NCBI GenBank assembly: GCA_012270795.1
Contig: JAAXHO010000213.1
Coordinates: 18,778 to 82,777 of the forward strand
DNA: 64,000 nucleotides
Reading direction: 5' to 3'
DNA from: Candidatus Poribacteria bacterium
GTDB lineage: Bacteria > Poribacteria > WGA-4E > WGA-3G
Of the stretch, positions 3,438-58,334 are shown piece by piece (within the stretch, counting starts at the first letter, position 1; every line of letters starts with the position of its first letter). The notes beneath the pieces are model-generated. The model searched no databases. It had not been told where the DNA came from and saw only the letters and a program-made list of their open reading frames with translations. Position numbers and translations under genes: made by a program.

Positions 3438-4840
3438 TCATTTCAATAGCGACCAATCAGGTTTGTCTTCGGGATCACCGAGGGGACCGTGTGCGTTACG
3501 GATAATACGACGTTGTGCGTCATACCAATCCGTGTAACTTGTCGCAGGTTGGAGTTTGTCGTTACGGGCATCCATAAGGTTTATGAGGGTATTTTCCATT
3601 TCGTCTGCCAACGTTTTTGCGTTGGGATCGTCAATCAGATTGTTCATTTGCAGCGGGTCTGCTACTATGTCACATAACATCCGTTTGCCGTTAAGCCAAC
3701 GCGCATAACTATGGGTTTTTGTGCGGAGGCCACGCCACTCGTTGCCATCAACAAGGTAATCATAAGTAGCACCAAAGTTCATCGTCAGGACAACTTCCTG
3801 TTTAAATGCATCCCCTACTCCTCGCCAAGAGGTCGATAAATCATAACCTTCCACAGTTCGCGGTATTTGAATATCACACAGACTGCAGAGTGATGGGAAT
3901 AGATCAACAGGTGAAGTAAGTGTATCACATAGACGATTACCTTCAAAAACACTCGGTAAACGCATAATCAGTGGCACTTTGATGGATTCCTCGTAAGGTT
4001 CTCTCTTTGCCCAGAAATTGATACCTTGTGCACCGCCTTGTGTGCCGTGGTCAGAACCAAAAACGAGTAGTGTGTTTTCAACACGTTCTGTCTTCTCAAG
4101 ATATTCCATCAACGCTCCTAACATATCGTCTACTGCTAAGATCATAGCAAGATAGTGTCGGTATGCATTTTTAGATCGTTCTCGTTGGTTTTCTGACACG
4201 TTTTCAGGAAGATGGAGTTTGTCAGGTAATCTGTGTCATAGTATTCCTGCGGGGCATGTTCATAAGGAGTATTGTGTGCTTGATGCGGAGATATAAACAA
4301 ACAAAATGGCATATCATCGTCCATGTTATCCATAAACTGGAAGGCATATCTGTTTAATGCATCAGTTTCATATCCTTTCCATCTTTCGTTTCGCCAATTG
4401 TCCAGATTCACTGTGCCGTTGAAATAATCGGTATGGAAGTTGTAACCCCGCCAATATTGGAATCCGAGTCGGTCACGTCCTTCAGGTACATAGTCACGTC
4501 CACCGATTTCAGGGAATGAACCTGTGTGGAGATGCCATTTACCGATCCAAGCAGTTTGGTACCCGTTCCTGCTAAAAACATCACCGATGCCGATCTCATC
4601 GTGTCGAGTATTGACGAAATTGATAAGGTGTCCAGTAGTCTGTGGGTGTCGTCCTGTGAGTAGCATGGAACGATAAGGTGTGCAGACAGGCACCGTGGCA
4701 ATTGCGTTTGAGAAAACAGTACCTTCCTGTGCAAGCCGATCAATGTGTGGTGTTTCAATCTGCGTTTCACCATAAACAGGCAATGAACAAGCACGGATTT
4801 GATCTGCAAGAAGATAAACAATGTTCGGTTTGTTTGTCAT
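3438..4840 (-). pseudogene. Sulfatase (formylglycine-dependent), broken by a single frameshift
   Basis: Two ORFs (4142-4840 and 3438-4199) are the N- and C-terminal halves of one arylsulfatase-type enzyme of about 467 codons. The N-terminal half has the metal-binding 'NIVYLLADQ' and the signature 'CTPYRSMLLTGR', where Cys53 would be converted to formylglycine. The C-terminal half has 'FGSDHGTQGG', which supplies metal and catalytic residues. The frames cross near 4222-4230: 'DTDYLT' should continue as 'KLHLPENVSENQRERSKNAY', the usual substrate-side linker, if one A is restored in the ACAAAC run. Relatives desulfate polysaccharides; there is no signal peptide. Only one base separates inactive from active, so this may be true decay or a sequencing error. 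Confidence 0.88.
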
Positions 4841-4851
4841 GACATAAAAAA

Positions 4852-5997
4852 TTAGAATTTTAATCCTAAACTGACACGATGTGCATCTTGCAAATGTCTG
4901 AAGTCAGCATAAGCGTAATCAAATGAAATCATTGTTTCTCGGAATTTCAAGTGTATGCCTAAACCGAGAGTCAGTCCCTCCTCATCGTCACTTCGGTCAG
5001 GACCTAATCGGTATTTGTAACCAGCTCGAATAGCTGCGGACTTTCTATACCAATATTCAACACCAAGGTTTAACCGTTCACTGTTATCATTTGGATGGTT
5101 GCCATCAAGTGCAACAGTGAGTAAGTTGTTGTCATTATCAATTAGGTCGTAAGCAATACCGAGACGAAAATTTGAGGGAAGTGGATACTCAATGGTGTCC
5201 AATTCTGCTTTTCTTGCTGGATTCGTCGTATCTGGGAAGGGATGATATTCAGCGATTAGTTCATCCCCAGCTTGTTCAACACCAGTTTCAAGATCAGACC
5301 CGCCAAAACGCATCTCTGGTCCAAAGTTCGAGAACGACATACCGATTCGCAAACTTCGCCAACCTGTATGATATAACGTCCCAACATCAATTGCAACACC
5401 CCTTGCATTTGCACGATGTATCTGTTGATGAATGTATTTCAGATTGATACCGAGAGATAACTTAGTACCAGATTCCTTTTGATAGAGTTCCCTTGAATAT
5501 GCTAATGAAACTGCAGAGTCCCATGCGGAATACCAAAGTCCAGTACCATCAGGTTTTTCAAGAGTTGTTATTTCTGTATCAGGGACGTTAAGAAAGGTGA
5601 CACTCGCACCTAAAGTGCCGACTTTATCTATAGGTGTTGCAAATGCAAGATAGTTGTATCGGACATCTGCAAACCATATTGTGTGCGTGTCAGAAAAACT
5701 TGTCTTTTCCAGTTGACTTAACCCCGCAGGATTCCAATAGATAGTTGTGACATCGTTAGCAATAGCACTGAATGCTCCGCCTAAACTGTCCACACGCGCG
5801 CCCGGCCCTATTTTGAGAAATTGTGCTCCTGCAGTACCAACATTCGTTGTCGCATAACTCGTAAATGTCAAGGATACAAAGAGAAACGCTAAAAACAATA
5901 ATGAAAAAAGAGGATTGTAGTTGGTTAACATATTACTTTTTGACATTCTTACTAACCCAAGAATATCTTTCTGTTTTGAGTTCATATCATTGTCCAT
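4852..5997 (-). CDS. PorV/PorQ-like outer membrane beta-barrel protein
   Basis: The 381-aa product has a hydrophobic signal segment ('LFSLLFLAFLFVSLTFTSYA', about residues 30-49), followed by 'VGTAGAQFLKIGPGARVDSLGGAF' and 'TIYWNPAGLS', the hallmark start of the PorV/PorQ (UPF0164) family. The rest alternates short strands with the aromatic-rich pattern of a FadL-like barrel and ends in Phe ('SLGLKF'), as barrel proteins do. In Bacteroidota, PorV shuttles type IX secretion substrates. The start MDNDMNSK is supported by AGGAG six bases upstream, giving an unusually long N-region before the signal core. It sits 25 bases downstream of the large exported protein gene, and likely serves it. Confidence 0.85.
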   Translation of the reverse strand: MDNDMNSKQKDILGLVRMSKSNMLTNYNPLFSLLFLAFLFVSLTFTSYATTNVGTAGAQFLKIGPGARVDSLGGAFSAIANDVTTIYWNPAGLSQLEKTSFSDTHTIWFADVRYNYLAFATPIDKVGTLGASVTFLNVPDTEITTLEKPDGTGLWYSAWDSAVSLAYSRELYQKESGTKLSLGINLKYIHQQIHRANARGVAIDVGTLYHTGWRSLRIGMSFSNFGPEMRFGGSDLETGVEQAGDELIAEYHPFPDTTNPARKAELDTIEYPLPSNFRLGIAYDLIDNDNNLLTVALDGNHPNDNSERLNLGVEYWYRKSAAIRAGYKYRLGPDRSDDEEGLTLGLGIHLKFRETMISFDYAYADFRHLQDAHRVSLGLKF

Positions 5998-6022
5998 ATA
6001 TTTCTCCTAAATCGTAGTTCAG

Positions 6023-9000
6023 TTATCTGATAATTGCAAACCGACCAATCTTGTTTCCAATTACATCGTTTTCTTCATTTTTCGCTTCTACATGGAAAAT
6101 ATAAACACCACTTGCGAGTGCTTGGTTATAGCGGTTAAGCAGGTCAAATTCAGCAGTACCCCCCTTGTCTCCTTGTGCTAAGCGTTCTTCCGAATTGAAC
6201 TTGGCATTACTCTCGTGTTTGATTTCACGAACCAATTCACCTGCTAATGTATATATCCGAATAGTACATCGTGGCGGTAGTCGTGTGAAAAAGACCTTAT
6301 CTGTACCTTCAGAGGTAACTGCTCTATTTGTAACAAAATATGGATTTGGAACGACGCGGATTTTCCCGAGGTCATCTTTGATATTTTTATCTTCAAGTGT
6401 TACTTTTTCTGATGTTAGCAGTTGCTCATCACCGTCCTGTGGGGCACTGATGCCTCCCATTTCAACAGTAAATACATTCCCTGCAGATATTTCCCCATTT
6501 GGATCAGCGATATATACATAAGCACCGCTTATGTATATATGAAAAAGATTGGGGGTATCTTCTCGTTTATATTCGTCACGCCAACCAGCAGCTGTACGAA
6601 TTGCATATCCATCTGCTTGTTCTTCCTTGAAAGGAATCTCCTCATTTGTATCCTCGTCAACTACTTTGACATCTGTATCATTAATGAAGGTGATTGAATA
6701 TGTGTGTGGGCGATAATATGTTGCCCAATAGATGTTGGGCCCGGTAGTAGTGCTTCTTGAGTGCGCCTCATTTTGGAGATCTACTGACCAACCATGCACT
6801 GAACCCTTAGTAAGTTCAACTTTATTTATAGAGTTAGCTGTGAGGCTATCATAAGATACATCAACCCCAGTTATTTTCAAAATAATGCCGTCAAACATTG
6901 GTGAGAGAACTTCAACAGCCTCTTGATGTTCTGGGTCATACCAACCAAACGTTTGCTTTTCAACGACAGTTTTGTTGGTAGTGGTATCAATGATTTCATA
7001 AGCAGGAGGTTGATATCCAGGACCAGTGATATAAGCCCCAGAATCAATCTGTTTAGCACCATACCAAACAATCTTATATCCATGTCCTAAAACTTTGTCA
7101 GGTGCCAATACCATTGGTTCAACGGTGACAGATACAGCCTCATTTGGCACCAATTCTACAGAAGGTTCTTTATATCCTGCTGGGTGTGCCCGTGGTACGA
7201 CATGCACCATCGTTTCATTCTGACTGCTCTCCATAACGGGCAACCCTCCTTCAGGATTACCCGTATCATAAGCCGTGACAGCATAAGTATATTGAATTCC
7301 GTTGGTTAATCCAGTATCCGTATAGAAGCTCTTTATACCCGCATTTTCACCGAGTGCTTGTGATTTGGTAGAGACAACTTGGAATATATCACCTGCAACT
7401 GGGGGGCCTGAGGGACCATCGGTAATTGTAACGTACAACCCACCGAAATATATCTGTTCACCAGAACGGTATGTTCCATCAGGATAAGGTTCGCCTGTAT
7501 TTGGATCCTTGATGACGACATACCCACCACCATCTGATGGAAAATCGGAATTATATGCCAACACTTCCCAATGCGTGGTGTTAATCACTTCAAAAGATGT
7601 GCTGGAATTGAATTTTATAAGATATGTTGCACTTTCAAAAAAAGCACTAAAAAAGGGTTCATCTCCCATGTTTTCAATAGTTGCATCGGACTGTTTACCA
7701 ACGTGCTCTACAGTAAAGTAATTACGGGAAGTGCTCGGTTTATCAAACTCCATCAACAATTTCCAATCTTCAACGGGTTTACCTGTTTTTTCATCGTAAG
7801 CAGTATCAAGTCTATAAACTCTATACCCTTCAAATACTTTCTCGCGATCGAATGGGTCTGCATATTCTTCTATATTCTTACTGACACCGTCATCAACCCA
7901 ACCATCTTCACTTTCCCAGATGAGTGTTATCTGTTCATCGGCGGGGTAAGCTGTTACCTTCGGGGAGGGTGGCGGTGCAGCTGCACTATAATCGTCATCG
8001 TACAATTTTTGTGCTTCATCCGCTGCTACTTGCAAGCCAGCAAGTCCTTCACCGATAGCGACTGCTATGATGACGTTGAATGACTCATCTGGAGCAAGTG
8101 ATTCAACCGGACCGTAGGATTGGATAAAACGTTGGTCATCATAGTTTGCGGGGAGTGGCTCAATACCTGGGGTGCTAATGAGAGCGTACATCTCTGCATC
8201 AGTTGATGGATCGGTGTCAATAGTGATGCGTTTGTGTGCTGTAAAAGGGATTTTTGCTGCAGCATCTTGTGCGTCATTCCCTATATAAGCATCCAATACG
8301 CGTAAACCGATGTATCCGGGTGCGGATCCATTTGAAAAACCGTAAGAAAGATAACGGTTCGGATGTTTATCAGGATTGAGGCTATCAGCCGTTTGATCTA
8401 ATGCAACAAAATCATCCGCTGAGTAATTTGCTGTGCCAGTTTCGTTACTGGAGATATCAACATCATACCGGAATGCCATAAATACATCTTCAAGCGTGTC
8501 TTCTCCAACATTCTTGACGTTGTATTCAATGATAAAAAAGTCGTAAAGTGGTGCGTAACTCCATTGATAGCAGTTGACATCAAGCTCTAAACCGAGTACG
8601 ACATCTTTGTTCACTTCTGTATTCGTATCCGTGCATTTGAATCTAATAACTTGTTGCGTCTGTGTCCCCTTGGCTGTTAGACCGGGTTTTTGTGAATATA
8701 TATTTACCATTTCCCCCGTTTCAGGATGTGGAATTGGTATAGGCCATATTTCACTTTGCCTACCGTCTGCCTCTGCTACTCCGACTTCCCCATTCTTTTT
8801 CGCACCAATCCAGATGTCCCCTTCATATATATAGGAGTCGTTTGTTCCTGCGGGCCACCACCCTGAGGGGTTCAGCGTGGGATTACTTGGAAACCCCACA
8901 ACGCCTGTATTGAAAATAGCACTTGAAAGATTTCCGACATCAAGTGCTTCCCATTCTTCTGCTGCATTTGCAGATAGGACTGTAAAAGTAATAACCGTAA

Positions 9001-9028
9001 TTAACAAACTATTTCGCAGTAATTTCAT
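6023..9028 (-). CDS. Large exported protein with fibronectin-like segment and FlgD/Por-type C-terminal tail
   Basis: The 1001-aa product starts with a clear signal peptide (MKLLRNSLLITVITFTVLSANA, cut before EEW). A central stretch 'PSPKVTAYPADEQITLIWE' begins a fibronectin III-like region. The final 80 residues ('RIYTLAGELVREIKH', '..GGTAEFDLLNRYNQALASGVYIFHVEA..', ending 'GRFAIIR') match the FlgD Ig-like or Por-secretion C-terminal sorting domain pattern. The gene lies immediately upstream of the PorV-like gene on the same strand, consistent with a secreted cargo and its outer membrane shuttle. Start ATG follows GAGGGG. No catalytic motif was recognised, so an adhesive or structural surface role is most likely. 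Confidence 0.8.
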   Translation of the reverse strand: MKLLRNSLLITVITFTVLSANAAEEWEALDVGNLSSAIFNTGVVGFPSNPTLNPSGWWPAGTNDSYIYEGDIWIGAKKNGEVGVAEADGRQSEIWPIPIPHPETGEMVNIYSQKPGLTAKGTQTQQVIRFKCTDTNTEVNKDVVLGLELDVNCYQWSYAPLYDFFIIEYNVKNVGEDTLEDVFMAFRYDVDISSNETGTANYSADDFVALDQTADSLNPDKHPNRYLSYGFSNGSAPGYIGLRVLDAYIGNDAQDAAAKIPFTAHKRITIDTDPSTDAEMYALISTPGIEPLPANYDDQRFIQSYGPVESLAPDESFNVIIAVAIGEGLAGLQVAADEAQKLYDDDYSAAAPPPSPKVTAYPADEQITLIWESEDGWVDDGVSKNIEEYADPFDREKVFEGYRVYRLDTAYDEKTGKPVEDWKLLMEFDKPSTSRNYFTVEHVGKQSDATIENMGDEPFFSAFFESATYLIKFNSSTSFEVINTTHWEVLAYNSDFPSDGGGYVVIKDPNTGEPYPDGTYRSGEQIYFGGLYVTITDGPSGPPVAGDIFQVVSTKSQALGENAGIKSFYTDTGLTNGIQYTYAVTAYDTGNPEGGLPVMESSQNETMVHVVPRAHPAGYKEPSVELVPNEAVSVTVEPMVLAPDKVLGHGYKIVWYGAKQIDSGAYITGPGYQPPAYEIIDTTTNKTVVEKQTFGWYDPEHQEAVEVLSPMFDGIILKITGVDVSYDSLTANSINKVELTKGSVHGWSVDLQNEAHSRSTTTGPNIYWATYYRPHTYSITFINDTDVKVVDEDTNEEIPFKEEQADGYAIRTAAGWRDEYKREDTPNLFHIYISGAYVYIADPNGEISAGNVFTVEMGGISAPQDGDEQLLTSEKVTLEDKNIKDDLGKIRVVPNPYFVTNRAVTSEGTDKVFFTRLPPRCTIRIYTLAGELVREIKHESNAKFNSEERLAQGDKGGTAEFDLLNRYNQALASGVYIFHVEAKNEENDVIGNKIGRFAIIR

Positions 9029-19116: not shown

Positions 19117-19956
19117 CTACCAAACAGATTTTATTCTGCCCCAAGTTGATGTTAACTTATCCTTAGGGTCAACGGATGTGACATGTGTATTTGTGAGTAC
19201 AACAAGCCCGACTTTATGCGGATGTTTGTCATGAACAATAGCATGCGGATTCCAACCGCTCCAACCTGTTTGGCCAAGGGCGTTTTTATCACCATCATTG
19301 ACACAGATGCCTAATCCGATTTCAAGGTTTTCGGTCAACGCGGTACTCTGACCGAAATTTGCAGGTGTAAATTTAAACTCATAGTAAGTTTTCTTGGCAT
19401 CATCGTCTCGAACTATAGCAAAATCGGCATTGGTGAAGCCAGGTAGACCGTGCGTTGATTCGTTATGCAGGATAAGGTCTCCATTATCCCTTAATGCGAC
19501 ATTATATAGAAAGAAAGTGGAACCAGATTCTCTAATTCCGCTTGGAACAACTGAGAGTTGAACACCATCGCCATTCCATGCACCACCTTCGGCATGTTCA
19601 TGCTCATCATCGGTAACATCAACAGCGAGATAGACTGCGTCGGCATCCCACACAATCATGAAACATGTTGTATGGTCTTCGGGTCCGTCCCAGGTGCCTC
19701 CTAAATCTTCTCAAACTTTAACGACACCGTCTCTGCCTTCAAATTCCACACCACAAAAAGTAGTTCCATCGGTACCGGTTACAGAATCTAAGACACCTTC
19801 CCAATCGTCAAGATTTCCATCTATTTCAATTTCAACACCTGTTGGTGCCTCGTAGACATCATGTGTTGGGCTGCGCCACTGGGCATCAACATTATTGATT
19901 GTTAACAAAGAGAGAGTCGCAAAGAGTGCAATTATGATCACAACAAATTTTTTCAT
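19117..19956 (-). pseudogene. CBM9-like secreted carbohydrate-binding protein with an in-frame TGA
   Basis: The N-terminal ORF (19711-19956) and C-terminal ORF (19117-19659) are in the same frame, separated by a single TGA at 19711-19713. Read through, the protein is 279 aa: a signal peptide (MKKFVVIIIALFATLSLLTI), 'DAQWRSPTHDVYEAP', then a CBM9/DOMON-like sandwich ('IDGNLDDWEGV', 'VYLAVDVTDDEH'). The intact paralogue at 20201 has Arg at the aligned position (FREWDDG against V-stop-EDLGG), so CGA to TGA is likely. The C-terminus ends 'SVDPKDKLTSTWGRIKSVW', the shared tail described under findings. AGGAG supports the ATG. Relatives bind glycans. Confidence 0.85.
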
Positions 19957-20165: not shown

Positions 20166-21007
20166 TTAGTGTGTAGATTTCAGTCTACCCCATGTTGTTG
20201 TTAGTTTGTTTTTGCTTCTACGGCGAGTTCGCTTTCTGATAGCCTGACAAGTCCAGTATGTTCACTCTGTTTTAGACCGTTGACGATACAATCGGTATAC
20301 CATCCACTCCACCCTTTTTGCCCGGGAGTATCGCTATCCCCATCATTGACACAGATAGCCAGACCGAATTCAAAACCTTCTTCAAACTTGTCACCTTTGT
20401 TAATTTCATCAGCAGTAAATATGTATTCGTAATAAGTTTTCTTTTCATTTTCATTTCGGACTATGGCAACATTATCACCGTCTACAAGTCCTGTGCCGCC
20501 TGCTGCTTCATTATGAATAATGAGGTTTTTTCCCTGGTTATCTAAGGCAGCATTATAGAGTAATAAGGTTAACCCACCATCGCGCTCACCGGTCATTTCA
20601 AAACCGAGTTGGCAACTGTCACCATTCCAAGCTCCACCGCCATTCTGATGTTCATCATCTGTTACACTGAGTGCGAGATATATTGCGTCAGGTTCCCAGA
20701 CAATTGCGAAACAAGTTTTGTGGTCATCAGGTCCACTCCATTTTCCATCATCCCATTCACGAAAAACATAGATTTCATTGTCGTTTCCTGCAAATTCCAC
20801 TTCACAAAAAATCTCACCATTTGTACCAGTAACGGATTCAATGACACCTTTCCAGCCTTCATCGTCATCGAGTTCACCATCAATTGTGATGTCTGCAGGT
20901 TTTTTGAGTGCGTTGTAAACGTCGTGCGTATCACTACGCCACTGTGCGTGTGCTGTAATGCTTGTAATCAAAAACAATAATGTAATTACAATCAAGAACT
21001 TTCTCAT
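20166..21007 (-). CDS. CBM9-like secreted protein; C-terminal tail lost to a frameshift
   Basis: The open frame (20201-21007, 268 aa) has a signal peptide (MRKFLIVITLLFLITSITAHA), 'QWRSDTHDVYNAL' and a CBM9/DOMON-like domain ('ITIDGELDDDEGW', 'AIYLALSVTDDEHQ', 'GWSGWYTDCIV'). It ends abruptly ELAVEAKTN. One extra A in the AAAAA run near 20208 would continue it as NKLTTTWGRLKSTH, stopping at 20166, which is the tail found in its paralogue and in the LamG proteins. AAGGAG supports the start. Likely binds polysaccharide outside the cell; tandem duplicate of 19117-19956. Feature coordinates include the out-of-frame tail. Confidence 0.85.
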
Positions 21008-56545: not shown

Positions 56546-57328
56546 TCAGCGTGCTTTGATATCACCCCAGGTTGTGGCGAGCTTGTCTGTCGGTTCAACA
56601 GATAAATATTCACCATCCTTCACTGTATTGATTTCTTCTTTTGACAAAGCACGAGAAAATATATAGTACTCATCCATTAATCCAATAAACCAGCGGTCAT
56701 TTTTGTGTACACCTATACCAGCAGAGACCCCCCAGTTATCCGCAAGTTTTCCGGAACCCGAAATAGAGTTTGTCTCTTCACCATCAATATAAGTTTTGGC
56801 CTCACCACTTTCACTGTCATAAGTGCCTGTAAAATGTACCCACTCATTCGTTTTAATCACTGGCCCCGGATTGATTTCAAAAATTTTTGTCCCCGCGATA
56901 TTACGATGGAACCATCTGAAACCAGCATTACGTATTTCGGCATGAAAAAGTCCACTTGCCTGACCAGTGCCTAACGCGTCAAGTAACTGTTGAGTACCGC
57001 TTGCCCCGGTGTGATTTATCCAAACAGCAAGGGTAATCTCATCAATCGGTACATTTTTAAACTCCGGACCATTCATATCAATATAAGTGCTGCCATTTAA
57101 TTCAATCGCTTTTCCTATCTGTCCATTAACATATTTGGTAGTACCTACTACCATGCCATCGTTTCCTTGGATTGATCCATCTGTGACAGTATCTCCATCA
57201 TCGTCAAAACTATAGTAGACTGATAATGTAGGGTCTTTTAGATCTGCTTGAACTGAGAGCAAAGGCACGCCTATTATTACTAAAATAGCGATATAGATAC
57301 GTATCACTTTAATACTATTAAAACGCAT
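56546..57328 (-). CDS. Secreted LamG-domain (concanavalin-like) protein with KLATTWG tail
   Basis: The 260-aa product has a signal peptide ('VIRIYIAILVIIGVPLLSVQA', partly shown) and one LamG/pentraxin-type jelly-roll domain: 'SVYYSFDDDGDTVTDGSIQ', 'GKAIELNGSTYIDMNG', 'TLAVWINHTGA', 'WVHFTGTYDSESGEAKTY', 'FIGLMDEYYIFSRALSKEEI' (short quotes). Such domains bind carbohydrate or protein on surfaces. The last residues are 'LSVEPTDKLATTWGDIKAR', shared in form with the adjacent LamG paralogue and with the CBM9-like proteins at 19-21 kb. TTTCCTCC on the plus strand gives GGAGG before the ATG. A mobile element abuts its 3' end. Confidence 0.88.
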   Translation of the reverse strand: MRFNSIKVIRIYIAILVIIGVPLLSVQADLKDPTLSVYYSFDDDGDTVTDGSIQGNDGMVVGTTKYVNGQIGKAIELNGSTYIDMNGPEFKNVPIDEITLAVWINHTGASGTQQLLDALGTGQASGLFHAEIRNAGFRWFHRNIAGTKIFEINPGPVIKTNEWVHFTGTYDSESGEAKTYIDGEETNSISGSGKLADNWGVSAGIGVHKNDRWFIGLMDEYYIFSRALSKEEINTVKDGEYLSVEPTDKLATTWGDIKAR

Positions 57329-57350
57329 TTTTTTCCTCCTTTTATATTAC

Positions 57351-57459
57351 AGGACTTACGCATTTTCTTTGAAAGTCCCTTTGATAAGGGGGATTTAGGG
57401 GGTTAAATAACGATTTTTTAACCCCCTAACCCCTTATCAAGGGGGAATGCGTAAGTCCT
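57351..57459. repeat. AGGACTTACGCATT inverted-repeat element
   Basis: Ends AGGACTTACGCATTTTC and GAATGCGTAAGTCCT with inner GGGGGTTA/TAACCCCC stems. A copy with a variant interior is at 59297-59415, and a half-site AACTTACGCATTCCCCC lies at 721-737. Confidence 0.7.
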
Positions 57460-57548
57460 AATATTATTAATTTTGCTATTGGCAATTTTGAAAATGGCTT
57501 GAATTCAGAAAACACCAAATCTAAGCCGTATTTGCACACGTTGTCTAT

Positions 57549-58334
57549 CTAACGATGTGATTTAATGTTACCCCAAGTTGTTGTCAGTTTGTCTGCTGGT
57601 TCTACCGATGTTAGAACACCGTTCATAATATCTGTAATTTCGCTTGCTGACACAGCGCGATTGAATATAAAGTACTCATCTAACATCCCATTAAACCAGC
57701 GGTCGTTCTTATGGTGACCGATTCCTGCAGTAACTCCCCAATTATCTGAACACGGATTTCCAGAACCCGCGGCAGAATGGGTCTCTTCACCATCAATATA
57801 AGTTTTCACTTCATTGCTCTCACTATCATAAGTTCCAGCAAAATGAACCCACGTATTGGCTTCAATTACTGGTCCCGGATTGATATTGAAAACTTCTGCG
57901 TTGTTTCCATCACGATGGAAGAATCTAAAGCCGCCAGAACGTATTTCCATGTGAAAAAGACCGCTGCCGTGGTCTGTCCCGATCGCATCAAGCAATGTTT
58001 GTGGAGATGATGAACCGGTATGGTTGACCCAAACAGCAATAGTGAAACCTTCTACAGGGCCGTTAGTAAATTCAGGTCCGTTCATATCTATCCATGAATC
58101 TGTTTCCAGGACAATAGATTTGCCGTAAACGCCTTCATCCCTAACAACATTTCCTACAATCATACCGTCGTTACCATTGACAGAACCATCTTTGACAACA
58201 TCACCGTCGCCTTCAAAACCGTAGTAAACAGAGATCGTTGGATCACTCAGATCCGCTTGAGCAGAAATCCCACCTGCTACGATAATGACTACAGCAGCAA
58301 GGGCGATATAAGACTTTGTAAAACCTGATCGCAT
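57549..58334 (-). CDS. Secreted LamG-domain protein with KLTTTWG tail
   Basis: This 261-aa paralogue of 56546-57328 has a signal peptide ('YIALAAVVIIVAGGISAQA'), 'TISVYYGFEGDGDVVKDGS', 'GFTIAVWVNHTGSSSP', 'WVHFAGTYDSESNEVKTYID' and 'WFNGMLDEYFIFNRAVSASE'. It ends 'TSVEPADKLTTTWGNIKSHR'. AGGAGAAAATT marks the start. The two genes are tandem in the same direction, separated by a 220-base spacer that holds an AGGACTTACG element, so they arose by duplication. A surface glycan-binding or adhesion role is inferred. Confidence 0.88.
   Translation of the reverse strand: MRSGFTKSYIALAAVVIIVAGGISAQADLSDPTISVYYGFEGDGDVVKDGSVNGNDGMIVGNVVRDEGVYGKSIVLETDSWIDMNGPEFTNGPVEGFTIAVWVNHTGSSSPQTLLDAIGTDHGSGLFHMEIRSGGFRFFHRDGNNAEVFNINPGPVIEANTWVHFAGTYDSESNEVKTYIDGEETHSAAGSGNPCSDNWGVTAGIGHHKNDRWFNGMLDEYFIFNRAVSASEITDIMNGVLTSVEPADKLTTTWGNIKSHR

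Follow-up and report, generated by a model that had tools for sequence, protein, structure and literature searches.

Genes of the window and their C-terminal tail

The window, which is the whole 64-kb stretch of poribacterial DNA analysed here, encodes on its minus strand two secreted LamG proteins that end in the same short peptide, hereafter called the WG tail. The LamG protein of 260 aa (56546..57328; Laminin_G_3, E = 2.6e-24) has a signal peptide and carries the tail SVEPTDKLATTWGDIKAR at 56549..56602, and that of 261 aa (57549..58334; Laminin_G_3, E = 6.8e-26) carries the tail SVEPADKLTTTWGNIKSHR at 57552..57608. Their C-terminal ends were translated as LSVEPTDKLATTWGDIKAR and TSVEPADKLTTTWGNIKSHR, and both tails were also recovered as tblastn matches near the stop codon. 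The same strand contains two CBM9-like genes with the tail. CBM9-like protein 1 (19117..19659; CBM9_1, E = 4e-8) ends with SVDPKDKLTSTWGRIKSVW, and its tail SVDPKDKLTSTWGRIKS(VW) was matched by tblastn at 19126..19176. CBM9-like protein 2 (20201..21007; CBM9_1, E = 3.2e-4, below the curated cut-off) loses its frame by one base in an A5 run directly in front of the tail, and the tblastn match KNKLTTTWGRLKS(TH) at 20175..20213 lies in the shifted frame. The tail shared by the LamG proteins, its presence on a CBM9-like protein and its shifted frame in the neighbour had been reported in a preliminary description of this DNA, and all were found as described. That description had also assigned signal peptides to all four proteins, which holds in unbroken form for three of the four reading frames; the signal peptide of CBM9-like protein 1 is located upstream in the same frame (approximately 19711-19956), and an in-frame TGA intervenes. 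Because of this TGA in protein 1 and the frameshift in protein 2, both CBM9-like genes are broken in this assembly.

The AlphaFold model of the 261-aa LamG protein showed a confident LamG fold and a tail (residues 241-261) with pLDDT of 42-55 and a weak helix only, and the tail is thus predicted to be a flexible appendage of this protein. A Foldseek search with the model returned lectins of the general jelly-roll type and binding domains of toxins, and in Pfam the LamG protein weakly matched a clostridial toxin binding domain with a score under the cut-off; both reflect the common fold only. The LamG tail protein had no match among 50,697 phage records.

Components related to the type IX secretion system (T9SS) are also encoded on the minus strand of the window. 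A secreted protein of 1001 aa (6023..9028) has a T9SS-type C-terminal domain (CTD) at residues 882-993 (NF052228, E = 9.6e-7), and the similarity at its end is to the C-terminal portion of the PorZ model. Directly downstream is a gene for an outer membrane protein of the PorV/PorQ family, the T9SS shuttle family (4852..5997; NF033709, 226 bits against a cut-off of 90), which is the best copy in this genome; its structure prediction from four sequences was poor (mean pLDDT 54). Together, the two genes (4852-9028) look like a cargo-shuttle pair. A sulfatase-like gene on the same strand (3438-4840) consists of two overlapping frames with the N- and C-terminal halves of an arylsulfatase, and is probably broken or an assembly error.

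Conservation, carriers and distribution of the tail

The genome from which the window comes (5.18 Mb, 298 contigs) gave 86 tblastn matches with a 19-aa tail query, well beyond chance expectation; all of them end 0-11 residues before a stop codon. One of them (C127:45402) lacks the W-G-x-[IL]-K core and was excluded, leaving 85 tails with the 16-residue consensus V[ED]PxxKL[TA]TTW[GA]x[IL]K. The tryptophan and the lysine four residues behind it are present in 85/85 tails and the lysine five residues before it in 84/85, whereas the third codon bases at the conserved positions are nearly random, with 1.5-2.0 bits at the majority of these positions, and near saturation. Since 84 distinct DNA strings were found among the 85 tails, spread of the tail by copying of DNA was ruled out. 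The tail is far better conserved than the domains in front of it. These results showed that the tail is a peptide under protein-level selection, as the preliminary description had supposed from the differing DNA of the first copies. The last lysine is followed by 1-6 residues in 83 of the 85 tails; these residues are mostly polar or basic. In a wider set of 302 tails, 150 have S, A or T directly behind the lysine.

The proteins carrying the tail were scanned with Pfam and NCBIfam (78 proteins, 2 of 80 omitted). Laminin_G_3 was found in 41 of the 78 and did not match the other 37, and at least ten other Pfam families occur on tail proteins, among them the Lamin Tail Domain (LTD), PD40 and other propellers, CBM9, 3-keto-disaccharide hydrolase-like domains, FGE, LRR, PKD and DUF4960. 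The claim that the tail stands on unrelated domains therefore extends well beyond LamG and CBM9. Neither an NCBIfam sorting family (25 most frequent of 42 families) nor a CTD model (PF18962/TIGR04183; 25 most frequent of 37 and of 42 families) was detected on these 78 proteins. A simple heuristic found a signal peptide in 63 of the 85 tail frames. Among the remaining 22, 15 have a signal-peptide-like start a short way upstream that is separated from the tail frame by a stop or lies in a different frame (two of them doubtful by eye), and the last seven are short fragments, a frame at a contig edge, one frame of 675 aa and one of 285 aa, none of which looks clearly cytoplasmic. The association with export, first noted on four proteins, was thus borne out on a larger scale. 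A looser count gave signal peptides in 59 of 77 tail frames. The other frames of the same loci with a length of 150 aa or more had one in 67 of 337 cases, which is a rough background only as non-coding frames are included.

A large share of the tail genes of this genome look broken by stops or frameshifts, with 22 of the 85 frames having no in-frame signal peptide. The in-frame stops of six such genes were TGA in three, TAA in two and TAG in one; because these stops are mixed, recoding of a stop codon was rejected and the six genes are taken as broken or as assembly errors. The idea that proteins with the tail alone are truncated CTD proteins was rejected as well, as CTD-like sequence was found within 450 bases downstream of 0 of the 85 tails.

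The distribution of the tail was monitored with a profile built from 83 tails (one of 84 omitted). In the window's own genome it had 97 matches at E ≤ 0.001 and 117 when E was relaxed to ≤ 10. Each of the 84 genomes of the phylum that were searched was matched; they represent 21 genera from 10 families, and the matches per genome ranged from 23 to at least about 100. A search for further copies had been suggested earlier, and the tail proved to be far more frequent than first noted. The fetched loci contain 27,464 open frames, in which the profile had 306 matches, 304 of them terminal, and none when the same frames were reversed or shuffled, which is the only fair control for this count since the loci had been picked by the motif. 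When species genomes were searched with the DNA pattern for KLTTTWGx[IL]K, 78 of the 80 loci among the matches listed carried the name Poribacteria, and all 90 pattern matches in these 80 loci were terminal, including a chance match in Clostridia. The latter is a 24-aa frame in a genome with zero profile matches. The other exception is a 1.9-Mb sponge bin named Pseudomonadota (JAPPIL010000222.1) with three tails, possibly owing to contamination or transfer; it holds two secreted-looking tail proteins. As far as seen, the tail is specific to the phylum. Taken together, a conserved C-terminal tag is present on about 100 proteins per genome, which have unrelated N-terminal domains and mostly signal peptides.

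A divergent T9SS and the motif in front of CTDs

In the 2014 study of Kamke et al. (PMC3909097), as far as its retrieved passages go, T9SS sorting domains were reported in Poribacteria, structural Por genes were not, and the route of export was left open. The passages retrieved from PMC7313196 mention Poribacteria once, unconnected with T9SS. In our analysis, the SprA/Sov model matched 80 of 81 phylum genomes at E ≤ 0.001, above the curated cut-off in one of the 81, and none of 14 control genomes. The SprA-like frames are mostly of about 2,000-2,300 aa; the homologue in the genome of the window (L104:10372-16788, plus strand, 2138 aa) matched with E = 5.5e-42 and 143 of 200 bits in five stretches, and a sequence search of the PDB with SprA gave no match. 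The PorV family exceeded its cut-off in 81/81 genomes, with 8-24 matches in each, and so did the canonical CTD model in 81/81. A PorU-like C25 peptidase was found in 81/81 genomes at E ≤ 0.001, with a best score of 353 bits and none above the cut-off of 420 bits; these matches could be other C25 peptidases. The model also matched 2 of the 14 control genomes. These results together showed that Poribacteria genomes encode a divergent T9SS, and the export-route question is now testable because SprA-like, PorV-family and PorU-like proteins occur in all or nearly all genomes searched. The preliminary description, which envisaged a search for co-occurring transport or protease genes, did not have this T9SS context. 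Phylogenetic profiles cannot link the tail with T9SS because all members of the phylum have both. Genetic linkage of tail genes to PorV genes was rejected, since the 17 PorV-family matches showed, by eye, no clear excess of proximity to tail places.

The motif was also found immediately before a CTD. One such protein, WD40-like by eye, is encoded in the genome of the window, and a pattern joining the motif with the start of a CTD occurred at 32 places in 30 of the 81 genomes, while the reversed pattern occurred at none. Four of 30 such loci, that of the own genome included, are WD40-like by eye. Most of the places belong to one family, the sole scanned member of which has FG-GAP and UnbV domains. 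When the end region of this FG-GAP/UnbV family was searched with the motif not required, matches were obtained in 48 of 81 genomes, and 48 full-length orthologues (30 loci and 18 fetched; two partial loci omitted) were compared. The tryptophan and a basic residue at the place of the lysine are kept in 46 of the 48, and V, E, P, G, K, W and G are each kept in 42-47. The lysine stands seven residues before the start of the CTD (YPNP) in this fused family. The motif was never seen behind a CTD. The early expectation of a strictly terminal tail thus applies to almost all copies, the exception being the motif directly in front of a T9SS CTD. Its retention there (46/48) argues that the motif is more than a substitute for a CTD and that, at the CTD border, it may mark where the mature protein ends.

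Possible roles of the tail in protein sorting

Like the T9SS CTDs of types A and B (PF18962, TIGR04183, TIGR04131), the WG tail is C-terminal, occurs on signal-peptide proteins of unrelated domains and has a near-terminal lysine; both are used in the same genomes and follow related modules. They differ in that the tail is a peptide of 16 residues, predicted to be unfolded, and the CTD a beta-domain of 40-235 residues. An Ig-like beta fold of at least 40 residues is absent from the tail model with its low pLDDT and weak helix; the tail matched no CTD model among the most frequent families and, unlike a CTD, can precede one. Sortase-type signals such as LPXTG, PEP-CTERM and GlyGly-CTERM are likewise short motifs that recur at the C-termini of many exported proteins within a lineage, and they often have a basic end. 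The WG tail resembles them in these respects, but unlike PEP-CTERM and LPXTG it has no transmembrane segment behind the motif, only the few, mostly polar or basic residues described above; the search for a sortase or exosortase partner covered the PorU-like C25 peptidases. At the known sites where PorU cleaves T9SS cargo the consensus is weak, according to the retrieved parts of two sources, with PT/GI given for Prevotella intermedia (PMC4560394, PMC11969387). The cleavage-site region and the WG motif are alike in lying just before the CTD with a small residue behind the supposed cut, whereas the WG motif is strong, spans 16 residues and occurs also without a CTD.

A C-terminal sorting or putative anchoring tag, proposed at the outset, is the best reading of these observations and is supported by them. 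We infer for its mechanism, with a probability of about 45%, that the tail is a phylum-specific sorting tag on exported proteins, read by the poribacterial T9SS, likeliest at the attachment step. The tail proteins would be brought into the periplasm by Sec, and the T9SS would then recognise the tag at the outer membrane, most likely in a sortase-like attachment step. Once the CTD had been removed from the proteins that have one, WGxIK would be exposed at the new C-terminus or close to it, where it already stands in proteins with the tail only, and the small residue behind the invariant lysine (S, A or T) would suit a cleavage just behind this lysine. A more specific proposal, which we regard as rather doubtful, is that the divergent T9SS uses WGxIK as a sortase-type recognition sequence, at which a PorU-like C25 peptidase would cut or transpeptidate directly behind the lysine, both on CTD proteins and on about 100 small lectin-like proteins per genome with the bare motif. 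The genome analysis identified no partner or receptor of the tail. The weakness of the PorU-like and SprA matches, below the curated cut-off in 81/81 and 80/81 genomes, respectively, was counted against reading by T9SS, and tail-only proteins, having no CTD, would lack an evident way across the outer membrane if the tag had no part in transport as well.

Transport is at the centre of a serious alternative, which nevertheless appears somewhat unlikely to us: the tail as a minimal T9SS translocation signal, a CTD reduced to its last strand with the near-terminal lysine and read by a PorV-family shuttle. The tail occupies the position of the CTD in the protein and does not occur behind one, PorV-family proteins are numerous in every genome, and related modules precede either a tail or a CTD (36% identity over 165 aa for CTD protein L123, 45% over 123 aa for CTD protein L122). 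By the retrieved passages of the sources, type A CTDs contact PorV through an almost invariant near-terminal lysine (PMC10994853), while Prevotella has functional CTDs as short as 40-55 residues and secretion of HBP35 needs just 22 C-terminal residues (both PMC11969387). Against this, the FG-GAP/UnbV orthologues keep the motif right before a full CTD, where there would be no need for another transport signal, and the tail proteins lack a Pfam or NCBIfam CTD model among the most frequent families listed. Cohesin-like modules, recognised by eye, are common to tail protein L067 and CTD proteins L123 and L127.

A T9SS-independent role, in which the tail would be a non-covalent docking peptide for a phylum-specific receptor of the envelope or surface, is in our view improbable. 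A short peptide, predicted to be flexible, with invariant W and K and confined to the phylum as far as seen, could serve in this way; the many small lectin-like carriers fit docking, and at least one carrier is already lipoprotein-like (C159:73047, TIYGC), but the exact position of the motif at the CTD border of the fused families would be left unexplained. That the tail has no sorting function and is an extension of LamG/CBM-type proteins inherited through gene duplication and domain shuffling is very unlikely and largely refuted, for although Laminin_G_3 is present on 41 of 78 carriers and the match coordinates in the own genome show local clusters of paralogues, the other 37 carriers, the at least ten further families, the conservation of the tail far above that of the domains and its retention before CTDs speak against it.

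No description of the WG tail was found among the papers listed in searches of the open-access literature, subscription journals and preprints being outside the scope of that search, and the tail looks like an address label for the cell surface that has been undescribed so far. By estimate, it labels about 2% of genes throughout a phylum that is mostly sponge-dwelling. If it is a surface or export label, the exported or surface proteome of these abundant sponge symbionts would be readable from sequence alone, and if the sortase-type reading is true, the lectin-like proteins with the bare motif would cover the surface of a sponge symbiont.
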